A stretch of 64,000 nt of DNA from Sphingomicrobium sp. XHP0239. GTDB lineage: Bacteria > Pseudomonadota > Alphaproteobacteria > Sphingomonadales > Sphingomonadaceae. The DNA is taken from assembly GCF_039555325.1 (NCBI RefSeq), contig NZ_CP154608.1, forward strand, positions 1,984,001 through 2,048,000. Direction: 5' to 3'. Shown here one piece after another: positions 25,354 to 32,472 of the stretch (within the stretch, counting starts at the first letter, position 1; the number at the start of each line of letters is the position of its first letter). The position numbers and the translations under genes are program-made. Under the pieces are notes generated by a model. That model did not search any database. It saw nothing but the letters and a program-made list of their open reading frames with translations, and was not told where the DNA came from.

Positions 25354-27384
25354 TCATTCGGCGGCGGGGCGCAGGTCGGGCGGGGTCGCCTCGTCCTTCA
25401 TCATCGCGATGAAATCGTCGAGCGCGATCACCTCCTGGTCGCGACTGCCGAGACGACGGACCGCGACGGTGCCTTCCTCGGCCTCGCGCTTCCCGACGAC
25501 CGCGATCACGGGAACCTTGGCAAGGCTGTGCTCACGCACCTTGTAGTTGATCTTCTCGTTGCGAAGATCGGTCTCGACGCGAAGGCCCGCAACCTTCAGG
25601 CGATCGCCCGCTTCCCGCGCGAAATCGTCGGCATCGGACACGATGGTCGTCACGACGACCTGCGTCGGTGCCAGCCATACGGGCATGCGACCGGCATAAT
25701 GCTCGATCAGCATTCCGATGAACCTTTCGTACGATCCGAAGATCGCGCGATGGAGCATGACGGGGCGATGCCGCTCGCCATCCTCGCCGATATAGGTGGC
25801 ATCGAGGCGCTCGGGCAGCACGCGGTCCGACTGGATCGTGCCGACCTGCCACGTCCGTCCGATCGCATCGGTAAGATGCCATTCGAGCTTGGGCGCGTAG
25901 AAGGCCCCCTCGCCCGGCAGCTCTTCCCAGCCGTAGTCGTCATTGTCCATGCCCGCGGCCTTCACCGCGTCGCGCATTTCCTGTTCGGCCTTGTCCCACA
26001 TTTCGTCGGTACCGAACCGCTTTTCGGGGCGGGTCGCGAGCTTGACGTGATAGGTGTAGCCGAAGTCCTTGTAGATCCGGTCGGCGAGGCGACAGAATTT
26101 CGCCGTCTCCTCGATCACCTGATCCTCGGTGCAGAAGATGTGCGCATCGTCCTGCGTGAACTGGCGCACCCGCATCAGCCCGTGGAGTGCGCCGTGCGGC
26201 TCGTTGCGGTGGCAGCAGCCGTTCTCGTAGAGCCGGACCGGCAGCTCCTTGTAGCTGGTGATGCCCTGCTTGAAGACCAGCACGTGCGCGGGGCAGTTCA
26301 TCGGCTTGATCGCCATCCAGTCGGCGTCGTCCGCAATGTCGGGCGAGGCCGCATCCTCGTCACTCTCGACGTTCGGGACGATGTCGGGGACCGCGAACAT
26401 GTTCTCGGCATACTTCCCCCAGTGGCCCGACTGGGTCCACTGCTTGACGTCCATCAGCTGCGGCGTCTTGATCTCGTTATAGCCGCCCTCGTCGATCGCG
26501 CGGCGCATGTAGGCCTCCAGCTCGCGCCAGATCTTGTAGCCCTGCGGATGCCAGAAGACGCTGCCGTGCGCTTCCTGCTGAAGGTGGAACAGGTCCATTT
26601 CCGCGCCCAGCTTGCGATGATCGCGCTTGGCGGCTTCCTCGAGCCGATGGAGGTGCTGGGCCAGCTGCTTCTTGTCGAGCCAGGCGGTGCCGTAGATACG
26701 ACTCAACATCGGGTTCGACTGGTCGCCGCGCCAGTAGGCGCCCGACACGCGGGTCAGCTTGAAGGCTTTCGGATCGAGATAGCCGGTGCTCGGCAGGTGC
26801 GGCCCGCGGCACAGGTCGATCCAGTCGGCCTCGCCAGTGCCGGTCTTGTACATGGTGATGGGCTCGTTCTCGGGCAGTTCCATCACCCATTCGGCCTTGA
26901 ACGCCTCGCCGTTGTCGATGAAGAACTGGCGCACCCGTTCGCGGTCCCAGACCTCGCGGATCAGCGGCTTGTCGGCCTTGATGATCGCCCGCATCTCTTC
27001 CTCGATCGCGGGCAGATCCTCCTCGGTGAACATGCCGCGACCCGGCGCGGGCGCGAAGTCGTAGTAGAAGCCGTCGTCGGTCGCGGGGCCGAAGGTGATC
27101 TGCGTGCCGGGGTACATGTTCTGCACCGCCTCAGCGAGAATATGCGCGAAGTCGTGGCGCACCAGTTCGAGCGCATCGGCCTCGTCGCGCTTCGTGATCA
27201 GCTCCAGCTTCGCATCGCCCTCGAACGGGCGCTTCAGGTCGCGCACCTCGCCGTCGACACGCGCGGCAAGCGCGGCCTTGGCGAGCCCCGGCCCGATCTC
27301 GGCGGCGACGTCATAGGGCGTCGCCCCCGCCTTCATTTCCTTCACGCTGCCATCGGGCAGGGAGATTTTCGACAGTTCGGTCAT
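25354..27384 (-). CDS. thrS: Threonyl-tRNA synthetase
   Basis: 676 residues. N-terminal TGS domain (about 1-62), the editing domain ([18 protein letters not shown], with the HxxxH and Cys elements), class II catalytic core with motif 2 and the zinc ligands Cys ([10 protein letters not shown]), His (EPHGALHG) and His (MLHRAIFGS), and a C-terminal anticodon-binding domain. A short acidic insertion ([16 protein letters not shown]) sits before the MNCP motif. It charges tRNA-Thr and edits Ser-tRNA-Thr. ATG 27384 with CGGAG upstream. A GTGCAGCGCAGCA element overlaps its leader. Confidence 0.97.
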
Positions 27385-27436
27385 GGCTCCGTTTCCTAGT
27401 GCAGCGCAGCAAACGCTTCAACCAAAAGGACATTTC

Positions 27437-27467
27437 AAGTACCCTTGGCAATATGCAAAGGGTGCTT
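27437..27467. promoter_or_regulatory. Palindrome overlapping the -35 region of the XRE operon
   Basis: AAGTACCCTT (27437-27446) and AAGGGTGCTT (27458-27467) match at 9 of 10 positions around an 11-base spacer. The right arm runs into the TTGACA -35 element. It is the size of a dimeric regulator site and is distinct from the second palindrome over the -10. Confidence 0.45.
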
Positions 27468-27494
27468 GACATGGCATCGCGCCGAATGTAAAAG
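27466..27494 (+). promoter_or_regulatory. Sigma70 promoter TTGACA-N17-TAAAAG
   Basis: Perfect -35 TTGACA at 27466-27471, 17-base spacer, then TAAAAG at 27489-27494. It drives the four-gene operon starting at 27525, with a strong AGGAGG ribosome site at 27510-27515. Confidence 0.75.
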
Positions 27495-27504
27495 TCACTT
27501 TACA
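27487..27504. promoter_or_regulatory. Operator palindrome TGTAAA-N6-TTTACA over the -10 element
   Basis: Perfect inverted repeat at 27487-27492 and 27499-27504, exactly covering the -10 element of the operon promoter. This position means bound repressor would block transcription. The obvious candidate is the XRE protein encoded third in the operon. Confidence 0.6.
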
Positions 27505-27524
27505 CAAAGAGGAGGAACATTGAC

Positions 27525-27701
27525 ATGGGAACCAACATTCTCAATTCGCTCGGTTGGGCCACCGCCATTCTGAGCGCGGCCTGGTTCGGCAAGGAAGGCG
27601 GCCTCGATACCACCCAGACCGGCGCCATGATTCTCGCGCTGTCCGGCGGCGCCGTCGCCACGCTCCGCCCCGACCTGCGTCGCGGTCGCTGCGGCCGATG
27701 A
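27525..27701 (+). CDS. Small two-helix membrane protein (58 aa), first gene of the XRE operon
   Basis: 58 residues, not recognised. Two short hydrophobic stretches (about residues 5-20, LNSLGWATAILSAAW, and 33-45, GAMILALSGGAVA) are separated by a polar turn KEGGLDTTQTG, and a basic Arg-rich C-terminus (RPDLRRGRCGR) would lie in the cytosol. AGGAGG lies 9 bases before the ATG. The stop overlaps the start of the next gene by 4 bases, so the two are translationally coupled and the small protein is probably made in similar amount. Confidence 0.7.
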   Translation: MGTNILNSLGWATAILSAAWFGKEGGLDTTQTGAMILALSGGAVATLRPDLRRGRCGR

Positions 27702-28315
27702 CCGACCAGGCGGCATCGGCAGAGCGGCGCCCGTTCGGGATCTGGTTCGTCGCGTTCGTCATTGCGATGATCGGCGCGGGCGCGCTGGTGACATTCGCGG
27801 GCATCGACGATCCGATCCTTGCCAAGGGCATCATGCTGATGCCGCTGCTCTTCATCCTCAAGGCGGGGCTGAACGGGATTCACAACGCCCGGCTCCGGCC
27901 TTCTGCGGGAGGCAGCGCCAACGCCCGCTATCTTGCCCGCATGTTGATGGTGACCTTCCTGTACGTGGGATCACTCTTTGCCGCGCTGGCACTGATCGAC
28001 GAGGGCGACCCCGTCACGATCGGCACCATCGTCCTCGCCTTTCTGCCCGGGCTCGCGGTCGCCGCTTACTTCTGGGCGATCGCCCGCCTGATGATCGAAC
28101 TCGACGACGAGTTCCTGCGCATGCTGATGGTGCGCCAGTCGCTCGTCGCCACGGCGATCGCGCTGTCGGCAGCCTCGATCTACGGGTTCCTCGAGAACTT
28201 CGGCATCGTCCCGCACCTCGCCGCCTTCTACTGGCCGATCGTCTGGTTCGCCGGGCTGGGGATCGGCGCGATCGTCAACAAGCTGACGTACGGCACGACG
28301 GGTGAAGTCCGGTGA
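27698..28315 (+). CDS. Six-TM integral membrane protein of unknown function
   Basis: 205 residues with about six hydrophobic helices (near 13-35, 42-61, 83-105, 112-135, 148-166 and 175-197) and short loops. I recognise no catalytic motif. Small XRE regulators of the type encoded next are commonly paired with multi-TM proteins of unknown function in bacteria, which suggests the pair works together, for example as a regulator and a membrane sensor or antagonist. It overlaps both neighbours by 4 bases. Confidence 0.82.
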   Translation: MTDQAASAERRPFGIWFVAFVIAMIGAGALVTFAGIDDPILAKGIMLMPLLFILKAGLNGIHNARLRPSAGGSANARYLARMLMVTFLYVGSLFAALALIDEGDPVTIGTIVLAFLPGLAVAAYFWAIARLMIELDDEFLRMLMVRQSLVATAIALSAASIYGFLENFGIVPHLAAFYWPIVWFAGLGIGAIVNKLTYGTTGEVR

Positions 28316-28506
28316 AGAACCGCCTCAAGGTCCTGCGCGCCGAGCGCGACTGGTCGCAGCAGGTGCTCGCGGACAGGCTCGGGGTCAGCCGTCAGAGCGT
28401 CAATGCGATCGAGACGGGCAAGTACGACCCTTCGCTGCCGCTCGCCTTCACCATCGCCGAGGTTTTCGACCTGCCCATCGAACAGATTTTCGATCCGAAA
28501 GGATGA
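28312..28506 (+). CDS. XRE-family helix-turn-helix transcriptional regulator
   Basis: 64 residues, a single Cro/C1-type HTH: MKNRLKVLRAERDWSQQVLA, then DRLGVSRQSVNAIETGKYDPS and a short dimerisation tail ending IEQIFDPKG. This is the widespread YgzD/YozG-like minimal regulator. GTG start with 4-base overlaps on both sides. It most likely represses its own operon through the TGTAAA-N6-TTTACA palindrome over the promoter. Confidence 0.92.
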   Translation: MKNRLKVLRAERDWSQQVLADRLGVSRQSVNAIETGKYDPSLPLAFTIAEVFDLPIEQIFDPKG

Positions 28507-29375
28507 TCCGGATGCTTCGTTACCTCCTCGCCTGCCTCGTGCTGATCGCCAGCCCCGCCGCCGCCGAACCGACTCGCTTTTCGGTCGAAGTCGTGGGCGA
28601 GGGGTCCCGCGACGTCATCCTGATCCCCGGCCTGATGAGCCCGCGCACCGTGTGGGACGATCAGGTCGCGCAACTATCGGCCGACAACCGGTTGCACCTC
28701 GTCCAGATCAACGGATTCGGCGGCACCGATTCAGGCCCGAATGCCGACGGACCGGTGTTCGCCGGCGTCGTCGACGAACTGGCGGCCTATCTGGAAGACA
28801 ACGATCTTACCGACGTCGTGCTGATCGGTCACTCGCTCGGCGGGTTTGCGAGCCTCAACCTCGCACTCGATCGTCCGGATCGCGTCGACCGCGTGATGAT
28901 CGTCGATTCGCTGCCCTTTTTCTCGATCCTGATGGGTGCGCAGAATGCCGACGAAGCGGCGCCGCTGGCGGAACGGATGCGGGCCTATCTGCTCGCCCAA
29001 CCCACTCCCGAAGCGGGCGACTGCACTACGCCCAGTTTCAACGCCCAGTCGATGAGTCTCGATTTCGCGGGCCAGTGCAAGGTCGACGCTTTCACCGCCA
29101 GCGCCGATGCGACCGTCGCAGGACAATTGGTGTACGACCTCGCCACCACCGACGCGCGGCCCCGACTGGCCGACCTGAAGGTGCCTGTTACCGTGCTCTT
29201 TCCCTATTCCGAGCCGATGGCGCCGCTCGATCAGGTATCGCGGCTCTACCGGACGCAATATTCGGCCGCGGGCGAAAGGGTCACCTTTGTCCCGGTCGAT
29301 AACAGCCGGCATTTCGTCATGTTCGATGCGCCGGACGCCTTCGCTAGCGCGCTCGCCGACTTTCTCGCGGACTAG
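28503..29375 (+). CDS. Exported alpha/beta hydrolase
   Basis: 290 residues. An N-terminal signal peptide (MLRYLLACLVLIASPAAA) indicates export. The alpha/beta hydrolase core shows the oxyanion segment LIPGLMSPRTVW, the nucleophile elbow GHSLGGFASL with Ser near residue 115, and a late His in NSRHFVMFD. Two Cys pairs could form disulfides (DCTTPS and GQCKV). The substrate is unknown; an ester or lactone is plausible. It is the last gene of the overlapping XRE operon, an unusual partner for a repressor/membrane-protein pair. Confidence 0.85.
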   Translation: MIRMLRYLLACLVLIASPAAAEPTRFSVEVVGEGSRDVILIPGLMSPRTVWDDQVAQLSADNRLHLVQINGFGGTDSGPNADGPVFAGVVDELAAYLEDNDLTDVVLIGHSLGGFASLNLALDRPDRVDRVMIVDSLPFFSILMGAQNADEAAPLAERMRAYLLAQPTPEAGDCTTPSFNAQSMSLDFAGQCKVDAFTASADATVAGQLVYDLATTDARPRLADLKVPVTVLFPYSEPMAPLDQVSRLYRTQYSAAGERVTFVPVDNSRHFVMFDAPDAFASALADFLAD

Positions 29376-29408
29376 CCGACAGCGTGCGCACTTCCTAGGT
29401 GAAGGGGC

Positions 29409-30167
29409 ATGACCGACGAACAGCCCCCGATCCAGCATCTCGACCATGACGGTCGCCGCCTCGCCTATCGCCACCGCGAAGGTATCGGCGCGACCTACGT
29501 CTTCCTCCCCGGCTACGCGTCCGACATGGAAGGCGGAAAAGCCACCGCGATCGACGCCTATGCGGCGCGAGGCGGGCGCGGTTGCCTGCGGTTCGACTAT
29601 TCTGGGACGGGAGCGTCGGACGGCGATTTCGCCGACGGAACGCTGGACCGTTGGCTGGACGAAGTTCTGGCGATGATCGACTCGGTTGCGTCGGGGCCCG
29701 TCATTCTGATCGGCTCGTCGATGGGGGGCTGGCTGGCGCTGCTCGCGGCGCTGCGACGTCCGGACCGCGTCGCGGCCATCTTGGGGATCGCCGCCGCTCC
29801 CGATTTCACCGACTGGGGTTTTTCCGAGGAGGACAAACAGGTCATCGCTCGAGACGGCAGGCTCGAACGGCCCAGTGCCTACGACGACAGCGTCATGGTC
29901 ACGCACGAGGCGTTTCTGCGCTCGGGTGCGGACCTCATGCTACTGAACCGACCGATCGACTATCGGGGACCCGTGCGTTTCGTGCACGGCGAGGCCGACA
30001 CCGACGTTCCCGCCCGGATCGCGGCGGCCGCGCTGCAGCGGCTGACCAGCCCCGACGTTCAGCTTCGCCTCATCAAGGATAGCGGACATCGCCTGTCGCA
30101 GCCGTGGGAGATCGGCGCGATCCTCGGCGAGCTGCACGACCTCGATCAGATAGTGACGCAGAAATGA
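29409..30167 (+). CDS. Alpha/beta hydrolase (cytosolic)
   Basis: 252 residues without a signal peptide. Motifs: FLPGYASDMEG (oxyanion region), RFDYSGTGASDG, nucleophile elbow GSSMGGWLA, acid in HGEADTDVPA and catalytic His in DSGHRLSQP. It resembles the ABHD10-like/carboxylesterase group of alphaproteobacteria; the substrate is not known. It starts 33 bases after the exported hydrolase gene and overlaps the TPR gene by 4 bases. Confidence 0.88.
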   Translation: MTDEQPPIQHLDHDGRRLAYRHREGIGATYVFLPGYASDMEGGKATAIDAYAARGGRGCLRFDYSGTGASDGDFADGTLDRWLDEVLAMIDSVASGPVILIGSSMGGWLALLAALRRPDRVAAILGIAAAPDFTDWGFSEEDKQVIARDGRLERPSAYDDSVMVTHEAFLRSGADLMLLNRPIDYRGPVRFVHGEADTDVPARIAAAALQRLTSPDVQLRLIKDSGHRLSQPWEIGAILGELHDLDQIVTQK

Positions 30168-30832
30168 TCCTTTCCCTCATCGCCGCCCTGACACTCGCCG
30201 GACAGGAAGCCCCGCCCCTGCCGCCGGCCGTCTGTGCCGACAGCGAACGGGCCGCCGACCTCGAATGCAAGGCGCAGGCGGAGGTCCGCACCGGAAACTA
30301 CGGAGCGGCCGCCGCGCATTTCCTGACGATCGCGAACAATGCGACCGATCCCGGTGCCAAGGCGCGCGCCTATGCCGCCGCCGCGCCGCTCCTCTCGGTC
30401 GCGGGCGAGCTTGACCGTGCACAGGAAATTGCCGCCGCCGCGCTCGCATTCAATGCGTTGGGGCCGCAGCAGGCGGGGTGGACGATGATCGACCGGGCAC
30501 AGGCACTGTTCCGGCTCGACCGCGTCGCAGAGGCGGAAACGCAGTGGGCGAGAGCCGCCGAACTGATCGCGCCCGACCCCTATTACTGGTGGACCGGAGC
30601 CTCGATGGCGTTGCAGGCCGGCGATCTAGCCGCCGCGAACGAGCGGGTCGAAGCAGGCCTGGAACGGGCGGATGATGCCCCCGAACTGCACCTCCTGAAA
30701 GGGCAGATCAGACTGGCCGAGGGGGATACGACCGGGGCACGTGCCGCCTTTTCCGCCGCGGTCGAGGCGCAGCCCGGCCACGACGCGGCCCTTGCCGCCG
30801 CGCGGGCGCTTGCGGCATTGAACGCCGAATGA
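30164..30832 (+). CDS. TPR-repeat protein
   Basis: 222 residues, Ala-rich. After a short hydrophobic N-terminus (MILSLIAALTLAGQ, probably a signal peptide) there are about four helical TPR-like repeats with pairs such as NYGAAAAHFLTIANNA, ELDRAQEIAAAALAFN and DTTGARAAFSAAVEAQPG. It is a likely protein-interaction scaffold in the periplasm. It is coupled to both neighbours by 4-base overlaps, so it belongs to the hydrolase-glyoxalase operon, but its partner is unknown. Confidence 0.78.
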   Translation: MILSLIAALTLAGQEAPPLPPAVCADSERAADLECKAQAEVRTGNYGAAAAHFLTIANNATDPGAKARAYAAAAPLLSVAGELDRAQEIAAAALAFNALGPQQAGWTMIDRAQALFRLDRVAEAETQWARAAELIAPDPYYWWTGASMALQAGDLAAANERVEAGLERADDAPELHLLKGQIRLAEGDTTGARAAFSAAVEAQPGHDAALAAARALAALNAE

Positions 30833-31251
30833 CCGCCTATCTTCACGCCATGCTGCGCGTCGCCGACCCGGAAGCCACCGTCGATTTCTTCAAGCTGCTG
30901 GGCCTTGAGGAACGTCGGCGCCGCGATGTCGAGGCGGGCCGGTTCACGCTCGTCTTTCTCGGCGTTCCCGGCCAGGATGCGGAGATCGAACTGACCCACA
31001 ATTGGGACGGCGAGCCCGAAGGGCTGGGGGGCGGTCGCAACTTCGGCCACCTCGCCTTCCACGTCGACGATATCTACGCGACCTGCGAAACGCTGCGCGA
31101 TCATGGCGTGACCATCAATCGCCCGCCTCGCGATGGTCGCATGGCGTTCGTAAAAACCCCCGATGGCGTCTCGATCGAACTGCTCAACAAGTCGGGCGCC
31201 CTCGAACCTCGCGAACCATGGGCCTCGATGGAGAATGACGGCACATGGTAG
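30829..31251 (+). CDS. gloA: Lactoylglutathione lyase (glyoxalase I), VOC family
   Basis: 140 residues, glyoxalase I fold. The metal ligands of the family align to His6, Glu54, His74 and Glu117. Together with the next gene it forms a two-step methylglyoxal detoxification pathway: hemithioacetal to S-lactoylglutathione. Overlaps the TPR gene by 4 bases and gloB by 7. Confidence 0.9.
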   Translation: MTAYLHAMLRVADPEATVDFFKLLGLEERRRRDVEAGRFTLVFLGVPGQDAEIELTHNWDGEPEGLGGGRNFGHLAFHVDDIYATCETLRDHGVTINRPPRDGRMAFVKTPDGVSIELLNKSGALEPREPWASMENDGTW

Positions 31252-32003
31252 AAATGCGCGACGGCTACGAGATCGACCGCGCAGGACGGTTCGAGATTGC
31301 GTGCGTTCCGGCCTTCACCGACAATTATCACTGGCTGGCGAAGATCGGCGACACGGTCGCCGTCGTCGATCCGGGCGACGGGCAGGCCTGTCTCAAGGCC
31401 GCCGACGCGCTGGGCTGGCCGATCACCTACGTGCTCAACACGCACTGGCACCCCGATCATGTCGGTGGGAATCAGGCGGTCAAGGACGCGACCGATGCAC
31501 GGATCCTCGGCCCGGCGCCCGAGGCCGACAAGATCCCCGGGATCGATGTCGAACTGGACGAGGGCGATACCGCGACACTCGGTTCCGCCACGGCCGCCGT
31601 CTGGCACGTTCCGGGCCACACGCTCGGCCACATCGCATACCATTTCCCCGATGACGGGATCGTCTTTTGCGGCGACACGCTGTTCGCCATGGGATGCGGC
31701 AAATTGTTCGAGGGAACACCCGAACAGATGCACCGGTCGCTCCAGCGCTTCGGCGATCTGCCGGACGACACGCTGCTCTATTGCGCGCACGAATATACCG
31801 AGGCGAACGGTCGCTTCGCGCTCACCGCCGACCCCGACAACGACGCGATTCGGGAACGACAGGCCAGGGTCGAGACGATGCGCGCGGAGGATAGACGCAC
31901 CGTCCCCACCACCGTGAAGGACGAAAAGGCCACCAATGTCTTCCTGCGCGCGCCCGACCCGTTCACGCTGGGGAAACTTCGGGCGGCCAAGGATCGTTTC
32001 TAG
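31245..32003 (+). CDS. gloB: Hydroxyacylglutathione hydrolase (glyoxalase II)
   Basis: 252 residues, metallo-beta-lactamase fold with the metal motif THWHPDH (His67, His69, Asp71, His72), the VPGHTLGHIAYHF segment, FCGDTLFAMGCGKLFEG and a C-terminal substrate-binding domain (KATNVFLRAPDPF). It hydrolyses S-lactoylglutathione to lactate and glutathione. A second in-frame ATG at 31254 would shorten it by three residues. Confidence 0.94.
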   Translation: MVEMRDGYEIDRAGRFEIACVPAFTDNYHWLAKIGDTVAVVDPGDGQACLKAADALGWPITYVLNTHWHPDHVGGNQAVKDATDARILGPAPEADKIPGIDVELDEGDTATLGSATAAVWHVPGHTLGHIAYHFPDDGIVFCGDTLFAMGCGKLFEGTPEQMHRSLQRFGDLPDDTLLYCAHEYTEANGRFALTADPDNDAIRERQARVETMRAEDRRTVPTTVKDEKATNVFLRAPDPFTLGKLRAAKDRF

Positions 32004-32006
32004 GGA

Positions 32007-32054
32007 CAGTGACCAATCAAGGGCCATCAACAGTGACCAATCAAGGGCCATCAA
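32007..32054. repeat. Perfect 24-bp tandem duplication
   Basis: CAGTGACCAATCAAGGGCCATCAA occurs twice, back to back, at 32007-32030 and 32031-32054, between gloB and the lipoprotein gene and ending 13 bases before the latter's start. No third copy. It places a duplicated leader in front of the lipoprotein gene. Confidence 0.95.
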
Positions 32055-32067
32055 GAGGAACAGACCG

Positions 32068-32472
32068 ATGAAAGCTTTTCTGACACTCCCCGCCGCCCTT
32101 CTCGTCGTCGCCTGCGCGACCGGCCCCGAGGCCGACTACGCGATGACCGCCGAGGACCGCGCCGAACTGGACCGCGAACTCGAAGGCTATGTCGCCGAAG
32201 CGCCCGAGAACTGCCTCGACATCCGCTTCGTCAACAACAGCCGCACGATCGACGAGCGCACGGTGGTCTATCGCGAAGGCAACCGTAAGTATCTTACGAC
32301 CTTCGACGATCGCTGCCCCGCGCTCGACCGCCTGGGCGAGGCGCTCGTCTTCCGCACCTTCGCGGGACGCGTCTGCGACGTCGATATCATTCAGACGGTG
32401 GATACCCAGACGGGCATCCAGAGCGGCGCTTGCAGCATCGACACGATCACGCCCTATCGCCGCGTTGATTAA
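32068..32472 (+). CDS. DUF6491-like lipoprotein
   Basis: 134 residues. A lipobox (LLVVAC near residue 16) predicts a lipid-anchored protein. The mature part has four Cys residues that could form disulfides (NCLDIRF, RCPALDR, VCDVDII and GACSID), matching the conserved spacing of the DUF6491 family seen in sphingomonads. Function unknown. AGGAA precedes the ATG; the leader contains a 24-bp tandem duplication. Convergent with fadD. Confidence 0.82.
   Translation: MKAFLTLPAALLVVACATGPEADYAMTAEDRAELDRELEGYVAEAPENCLDIRFVNNSRTIDERTVVYREGNRKYLTTFDDRCPALDRLGEALVFRTFAGRVCDVDIIQTVDTQTGIQSGACSIDTITPYRRVD

Follow-up and report, generated by a model that had tools for sequence, protein, structure and literature searches.

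A predicted self-regulating operon of an XRE repressor and a six-helix membrane protein, widespread in the Sphingomonadaceae and related in kind to an Enterococcus sensing pair

Organization of the locus

The window, a stretch of 64,000 nucleotides of the genome of Sphingomicrobium sp. XHP0239 (contig NZ_CP154608.1, positions 1,984,001 to 2,048,000), contains four rightwards-transcribed genes, referred to here as A to D, which lie divergent to thrS and upstream of a further hydrolase gene, E (Table 1). All four open reading frames given in the preliminary description are open, and the exact 4-base overlaps that it reported are present at all three junctions (ATGA at A/B, GTGA at B/C and ATGA at C/D). 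Overlaps of this length recur just downstream (30164-30167 and 30829-30832) and are thus not special to genes A-D. Since E begins 33 bp past the end of D and no terminator-like site was found in the interval 27380-32100, the 3' end of the operon at 29375 is putative, and E is possibly co-transcribed with A-D. Genes for E, a TPR protein, a glyoxalase and a GloB-like hydrolase are closely spaced across 29409-32003, with 4-base overlaps at two of their junctions, and the A-D transcript may continue through them.

Table 1. Coordinates of genes and sequence features at the locus (positions in the window).
Feature	Position	Strand	Description
thrS	25354..27384	-	Divergent neighbour; not thought to be a module member
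Operator copy O0, TTTCAAGTACCCTTGGCA	27433..27450		2 mismatches; weakly conserved in relatives
Operator copy O1, TGCAAAGGGTGCTTGACA	27454..27471		1 mismatch; right half is the -35 hexamer
-35 hexamer	27466..27471	+	TTGACA; from sequence
Operator copy O2, TGTAAAAGTCACTTTACA	27487..27504		0 mismatches; covers probable -10 (27489-27494)
Operator O3 position	27508..27525		21 bp after O2; only the right half-site TTGACA kept in the window
Gene A	27525..27701	+	58 aa, membrane hairpin of two helices, Cys tail at the C-terminus; optional member
Gene B	27698..28315	+	205-aa six-helix membrane protein, putative XRE partner; core member
Gene C	28312..28506	+	64-aa XRE (HTH_3) regulator, GTG start, CylR2 relative; core member
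Gene D	28503..29375	+	290-aa alpha/beta hydrolase, probable signal peptide; optional, linked to C
Gene E	29409..30167	+	Second alpha/beta hydrolase; frequent neighbour 3' of C

The product of gene C matches the Pfam model HTH_3 (E 1.2e-15) and aligns with CylR2 over residues 3-61 (phmmer, E 2.1e-11), and its closest solved relative by sequence is a PbsX-family regulator (PDB 9k3w, E 8.8e-22 over 63 residues). The product of D matches Abhydrolase_6 (PF12697, E 2.1e-17), and its nucleophile motif G109-H-S111-x-G-G and residue H270 are invariant in 15 sequences; on visual inspection alone its N-terminus resembles a signal peptide, and the N-termini of its orthologues look similar. Neither A nor B matches any Pfam or NCBIfam model at E values up to 1. 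The proposed six-TM character of B is borne out by an AlphaFold model with six confident helices (mean pLDDT 93), while A is modelled as a two-helix hairpin with a low-confidence tail (mean pLDDT 76). Comparison of B with known partners of regulators gave no link by sequence and no clear one by fold, and charge counts of its loops leave its topology unsettled. Shorter relatives of B lack the first two helices, and eight genomes (G085, G012, G135, G185, G196, G209, G249 and G298) have a pair of adjacent matches to B, suggestive of tandem copies and of a partner that is hetero-oligomeric.

Two different palindromes had been described in the promoter region, but the site at 27487-27504 and the inverted repeat at approximately 27433-27471 share one pattern and are copies of a single 18-bp operator, TGTMAA-N6-TTKACA, a pattern that was read by eye across upstream sequences from 23 relatives. 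O1 and O2 are 33 bp apart in the window and 32-34 bp apart in relatives. The O3 copy is conserved in relatives and is reduced to a half-site in the window, where its position overlaps the Shine-Dalgarno sequence (27510-27515) and the first base of the A start codon. The operator copies cover the -35 and, judging from position, the probable -10. The strong promoter of the preliminary description stands in part: the -35 hexamer is perfect, but the best -10 at 17-bp spacing is only TAAAAG, and a consensus scan reported no sigma-70 promoter upstream of A.

Conservation of the genes and operators

A search of 71 genomes of the genus for XRE genes gave 92 matches, of which 80 were fetched and assigned, by identity and context, to class I (45 loci, orthologous to that of the window), class II (24 loci) and class III (9 loci), with one class I locus (L110) placed by identity alone and two others (L150 and L152) unclassed. 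Class I genes are present once each in 45 of the 71 genomes. Identity to the window's C is 75-94%, and that of the accompanying B proteins to the window's B is 21-58%.

The feature common to almost all class I loci is the pairing of B with C. By a strict rule B lies directly 5' of C in 40 of the 45 loci, and a tandem-B locus brings this to 41/45; the two frames are nearly always overlapping. Homologues of B (E <=1e-8) are found in 115/249 genomes and 56/96 genera of the family. The 30 best-scoring of these loci were fetched, three of them from the genus, and 26 of the 27 non-genus loci have B immediately 5' of C, with C lying 445 bp further on in the other (L186). An XRE regulator with a membrane partner was said to recur, and does so as this two-gene core; the expected four-gene order is much rarer, with all four genes in only 7/45 loci. 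C is kept without B in four of the 45 loci, so B is not always needed.

Genes A and D have a patchier distribution. Using an HMM built from genus A sequences and 44 database homologues, and excluding false small-ORF calls at L106, L109 and L116, A was found in 14/45 class I loci (absent from 31) and in 7 of the 27 non-genus loci, one of them weakly. D lies 3' of C as an intact gene in 15/45 loci and is absent from 29, the remaining locus having a broken D frame (genome G077, L100), for a total of 16/45. Where D occurs it is closely tied to C, with 16 of 18 orthologues in the genus (E <=1e-22, in 17/71 genomes) directly following a class I C gene, and the earlier inclusion of an exported hydrolase in the unit (export being judged from the signal peptide by eye) is upheld by this linkage. 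A and D show no significant association (both in 7/45 loci, Fisher p 0.20). E is found within 1.4 kb and in the same orientation in 16/45 class I loci, and a divergent thrS lies 0.1-3.2 kb away in 41/45. From these distributions B and C are the core of the module, with A and D as optional members.

The operator array is conserved along with the XRE gene. The 45 class I loci contain 26, 64 and 108 sites with at most zero, one and two mismatches respectively, compared with means of 0, 0.05 and 1.3 (maxima 0, 1 and 7) when the same regions were shuffled 200 times under a first-order Markov model, although most of the 23 loci from which the pattern was read recur both in this count and in the genus scan described below, such that these numbers are not independent tests. 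The main pair of operators is 32-34 bp apart in 39/45 loci, and a third copy tends to lie at exactly +21 bp, where the mean number of mismatches is 2.87 compared with 8.6 +/- 0.87 at other offsets. The copy nearest to thrS is weakly conserved across class I loci (mean 6.38 mismatches). Among the 27 non-genus loci, which were not used in reading the pattern, 24 have a site with at most one mismatch, a count that has no shuffle control of its own and in which one locus (L170) contributed only 617 bp upstream of C. Exact sites are also present in two loci of other families of the order, both of which are among the 23 pattern-source loci.

A scan of 61 genomes of the genus identified 37 exact sites in 24 genomes, whereas the reversed pattern gave one. 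For 33 of the 37, an XRE gene of class I or class III lies at most 1.2 kb downstream. Sites with up to two mismatches are still found upstream of C in the four loci that lack B. No sign of a wider regulon emerged: the window genome has 35 sites with at most two mismatches as against 58 for the reversed control, so that weak additional targets are indistinguishable from chance, and inspection of its other one-mismatch site (G000:C1:368577) and of three two-mismatch sites suggested no shared target. Four exact sites in the genus are not near any matched XRE gene, and three of these have no clear target; the fourth (G030:C21:8725, L200) is followed 24 bp on by a second copy and precedes a membrane-protein ORF near a contig end, and is perhaps a further XRE-membrane locus. 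The location of the exact sites, the persistence of sites with up to two mismatches where B is missing and the lack of an excess in the window genome together point to C acting on its own operon. Self-control, as proposed in the preliminary description, is thus well supported at the level of predicted operators.

The other XRE classes have their own neighbours. The 24 class II relatives (L125, L127-L129, L131-L149 and L151) are paralogous modules. In 23 of them the XRE gene adjoins a gene for a protein with two or more predicted TM segments, and in 21 a motif search placed a TraB/PrgY/GumN-type protein no more than 2 kb downstream (Pfam checked on two); a short hydrophobic ORF lies just 5' of the XRE gene in 10 of 16 examined, some perhaps by chance. 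A site starting TGTCAG, a motif read without a control, is present in 18 of the 24 fetched class II loci, and their recognition region differs in the consensus residue that follows SRQ. All nine class III loci (L153-L161) have a downstream membrane protein, mostly with six helices, and five have an exact class I-type operator, several of them TGTAAAGAGCTCTTGACA. Where class I and class III are both present there may be cross-talk between them.

Both membrane proteins tend to carry cysteine near the C-terminus. All 44 A homologues have a Cys within the last 12 residues and 29 have two or more, although the search profile took in the tail and so favours Cys-bearing matches. In the database search with B, for which the 7996 best candidates were scored, Cys is the last or penultimate residue in 63/120 among the matches listed (120 of 639 proteins), and B ends in this way in 30/40 genus sequences. 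In the latter, Cys is the final residue at 16 of the 17 loci that have no NTGA junction and the penultimate one at 14 of the 23 that do. The terminal-Cys codons comprise 27 TGC and three TGT, so that selection at the protein level is likely; the codons at non-NTGA junctions are all TGC (16/16), and there could be a nucleotide-level contribution to the pattern. In the window B has no terminal Cys and the tail of A has only one. The extracytoplasmic trigger suggested in the preliminary description is conjectural; the Cys tail is the one unusual conserved feature of these membrane proteins, and would be cytoplasmic if the topology that we infer is correct.

A proposed mechanism and its alternatives

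We consider it fairly probable that the locus is an operon under negative autoregulation and membrane gating, in the manner of CylR1/CylR2. A dimer of C would bind two or three 18-bp operators, set at regular intervals over the -35 and -10, and repress its own operon; both the array and its near-exclusive association with XRE genes of this type are apparent from comparison of the loci. B, whose pairing with C emerges from the same comparison, would be the membrane-side element controlling C, holding or releasing it in response to a condition of the membrane or envelope. The small Cys-tailed hairpin A would be an accessory that tunes B where present. Release of C would lead to more B, more C and, where it is encoded, more exported D. 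Given the linkage of its gene to C, D is a candidate output of the circuit, and might act on the envelope or on the inducer. The gene set itself is established by comparative sequence, whereas the direct binding and repression by C, the gating by B, the role of A, the trigger and the substrate of D are what this model predicts.

A simpler account, which we regard as rather unlikely, is that C is only an autorepressor, that B has no part in sensing and is some unrelated transporter or membrane protein of small size that C holds at a constant dose, and that A and D are passengers. Such an arrangement would explain the persistence of C without B in four of 45 loci, the optional presence of A and D with no significant association between them, and the far faster divergence of B than of C. 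It accounts poorly for the adjacency of B and C in 41/45 genus loci and 26/27 examined family loci with nearly always overlapping frames, for the occurrence of D orthologues almost only at class I loci, and for the proteins with at least two predicted TM segments that also adjoin the class II and class III XRE genes (23/24 and 9/9). The cysteine tails raise the prospect that A and B, through tails expected to be cytoplasmic, bind metal or form disulfides and gate C in this way, the trigger being the internal redox or metal state and not an external signal. The occurrence of these tails in every A homologue and in a majority of the B proteins speaks for thiol or metal control, but we judge it unlikely, because the window's own B lacks the terminal Cys and its A has only one in the tail, A is absent from 31/45 loci, the A profile favoured Cys-bearing matches, the uniform TGC codons at non-NTGA junctions could in part reflect nucleotide-level effects, and the topology is itself predicted. 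An elaborated version of the membrane-gated circuit, improbable when taken with all of its parts together, is that the Sphingomonadaceae carry self-only circuits in which a complex of Cys-tailed A and B would gate a dedicated XRE repressor acting on no operon but its own, while an exported enzyme encoded there would remove the derepressing compound, arising from the envelope or from outside, to give homeostatic feedback; a paralogous class would pair its XRE gene with an exported TraB/PrgY/GumN-type protein in place of the alpha/beta hydrolase.

The immunity-like or lysis role raised in the preliminary description, or a toxin-antitoxin module, is very improbable and is disfavoured. A small membrane protein beside an XRE gene superficially resembles toxin-antitoxin layouts, the membrane protein evolves fast, and C matches 20 HTH-containing models in PADLOC-DB 2.0.0, including those of defence systems (best HTH_VI, E 7.4e-12; also RmrA, capH and restriction control proteins). 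These matches, however, reflect the HTH fold, A, B and D have no match in the same database at E 0.1, the core is kept in many genera of the family, and the locus sits beside a divergent thrS in 41/45 genus loci. The array is placed in the 140 bp that separate thrS from the operon, with O0 on the thrS side, which could be taken to mean that the operators serve thrS and that C is a thrS regulator which happens to adjoin it. Control of thrS is likewise disfavoured, and we find it scarcely credible: at loci with thrS 1.7-2.8 kb off (L094, L095 and L111) the operators are still found with C, and they are present at L122, L123, L201, L202 and class III loci where there is no thrS in the fetched stretch. 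The membrane-gated, autoregulated operon remains our preferred reading.

Comparison with known systems

As a principle, the pairing of a small XRE regulator and a membrane protein is already known; what is new is a family with an operator array, A and B proteins that lack a family model, and an exported hydrolase. No published description of a module with the operator array, A, B and the hydrolase was found in the literature searched, and we know of no counterpart of A in the CylR1/CylR2 or Bib1R1/Bib1R2 systems. Multispanning proteins of the DUF2975 type are said to adjoin small XRE regulators, but the window's B has no match to DUF2975 (PF11188) and the best of 37 relatives reaches only E 0.086. 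Autoregulatory XRE regulators, in the portion of PMC12565409 cited here, are dimeric and bind palindromes upstream of their own genes, as is predicted for C; by way of difference, the word "membrane" occurs nowhere in the text of that paper.

The closest parallels are CylR1/CylR2 of the Enterococcus faecalis cytolysin system and Bib1R1/Bib1R2 of bibacillin, as covered in the cited parts of PMC3709268 and PMC11343131. Induction of the cytolysin system depends on the membrane protein CylR1, with CylR2 located on the promoter, and the 2013 review, in the part cited, describes the membrane step of this sensing pair as not understood (PMC3709268). In both pairs, as at the present locus, the gene for a small XRE regulator accompanies that for a small multispanning membrane protein; the operators predicted here likewise lie over the promoter, and there is no kinase or response regulator among A-E. 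Unlike CylR1, for which three TM segments are predicted, B has six predicted helices; in further contrast to CylR1/CylR2, the operon appears to control itself together with an exported hydrolase, no lantibiotic gene was recognised among A-E, and there are several operator copies. The locus combines a predicted operator array with a confidently modelled B, natural variants with and without A, B or D, and one linked output gene, by virtue of which it becomes directly testable how control of a 64-residue repressor by a multispanning protein works, in a bacterium that is not known as a pathogen. Widespread in a single bacterial family but uncharacterised, the module is of a similar kind to the Enterococcus sensing pair and forms a Gram-negative counterpart of CylR1/CylR2.
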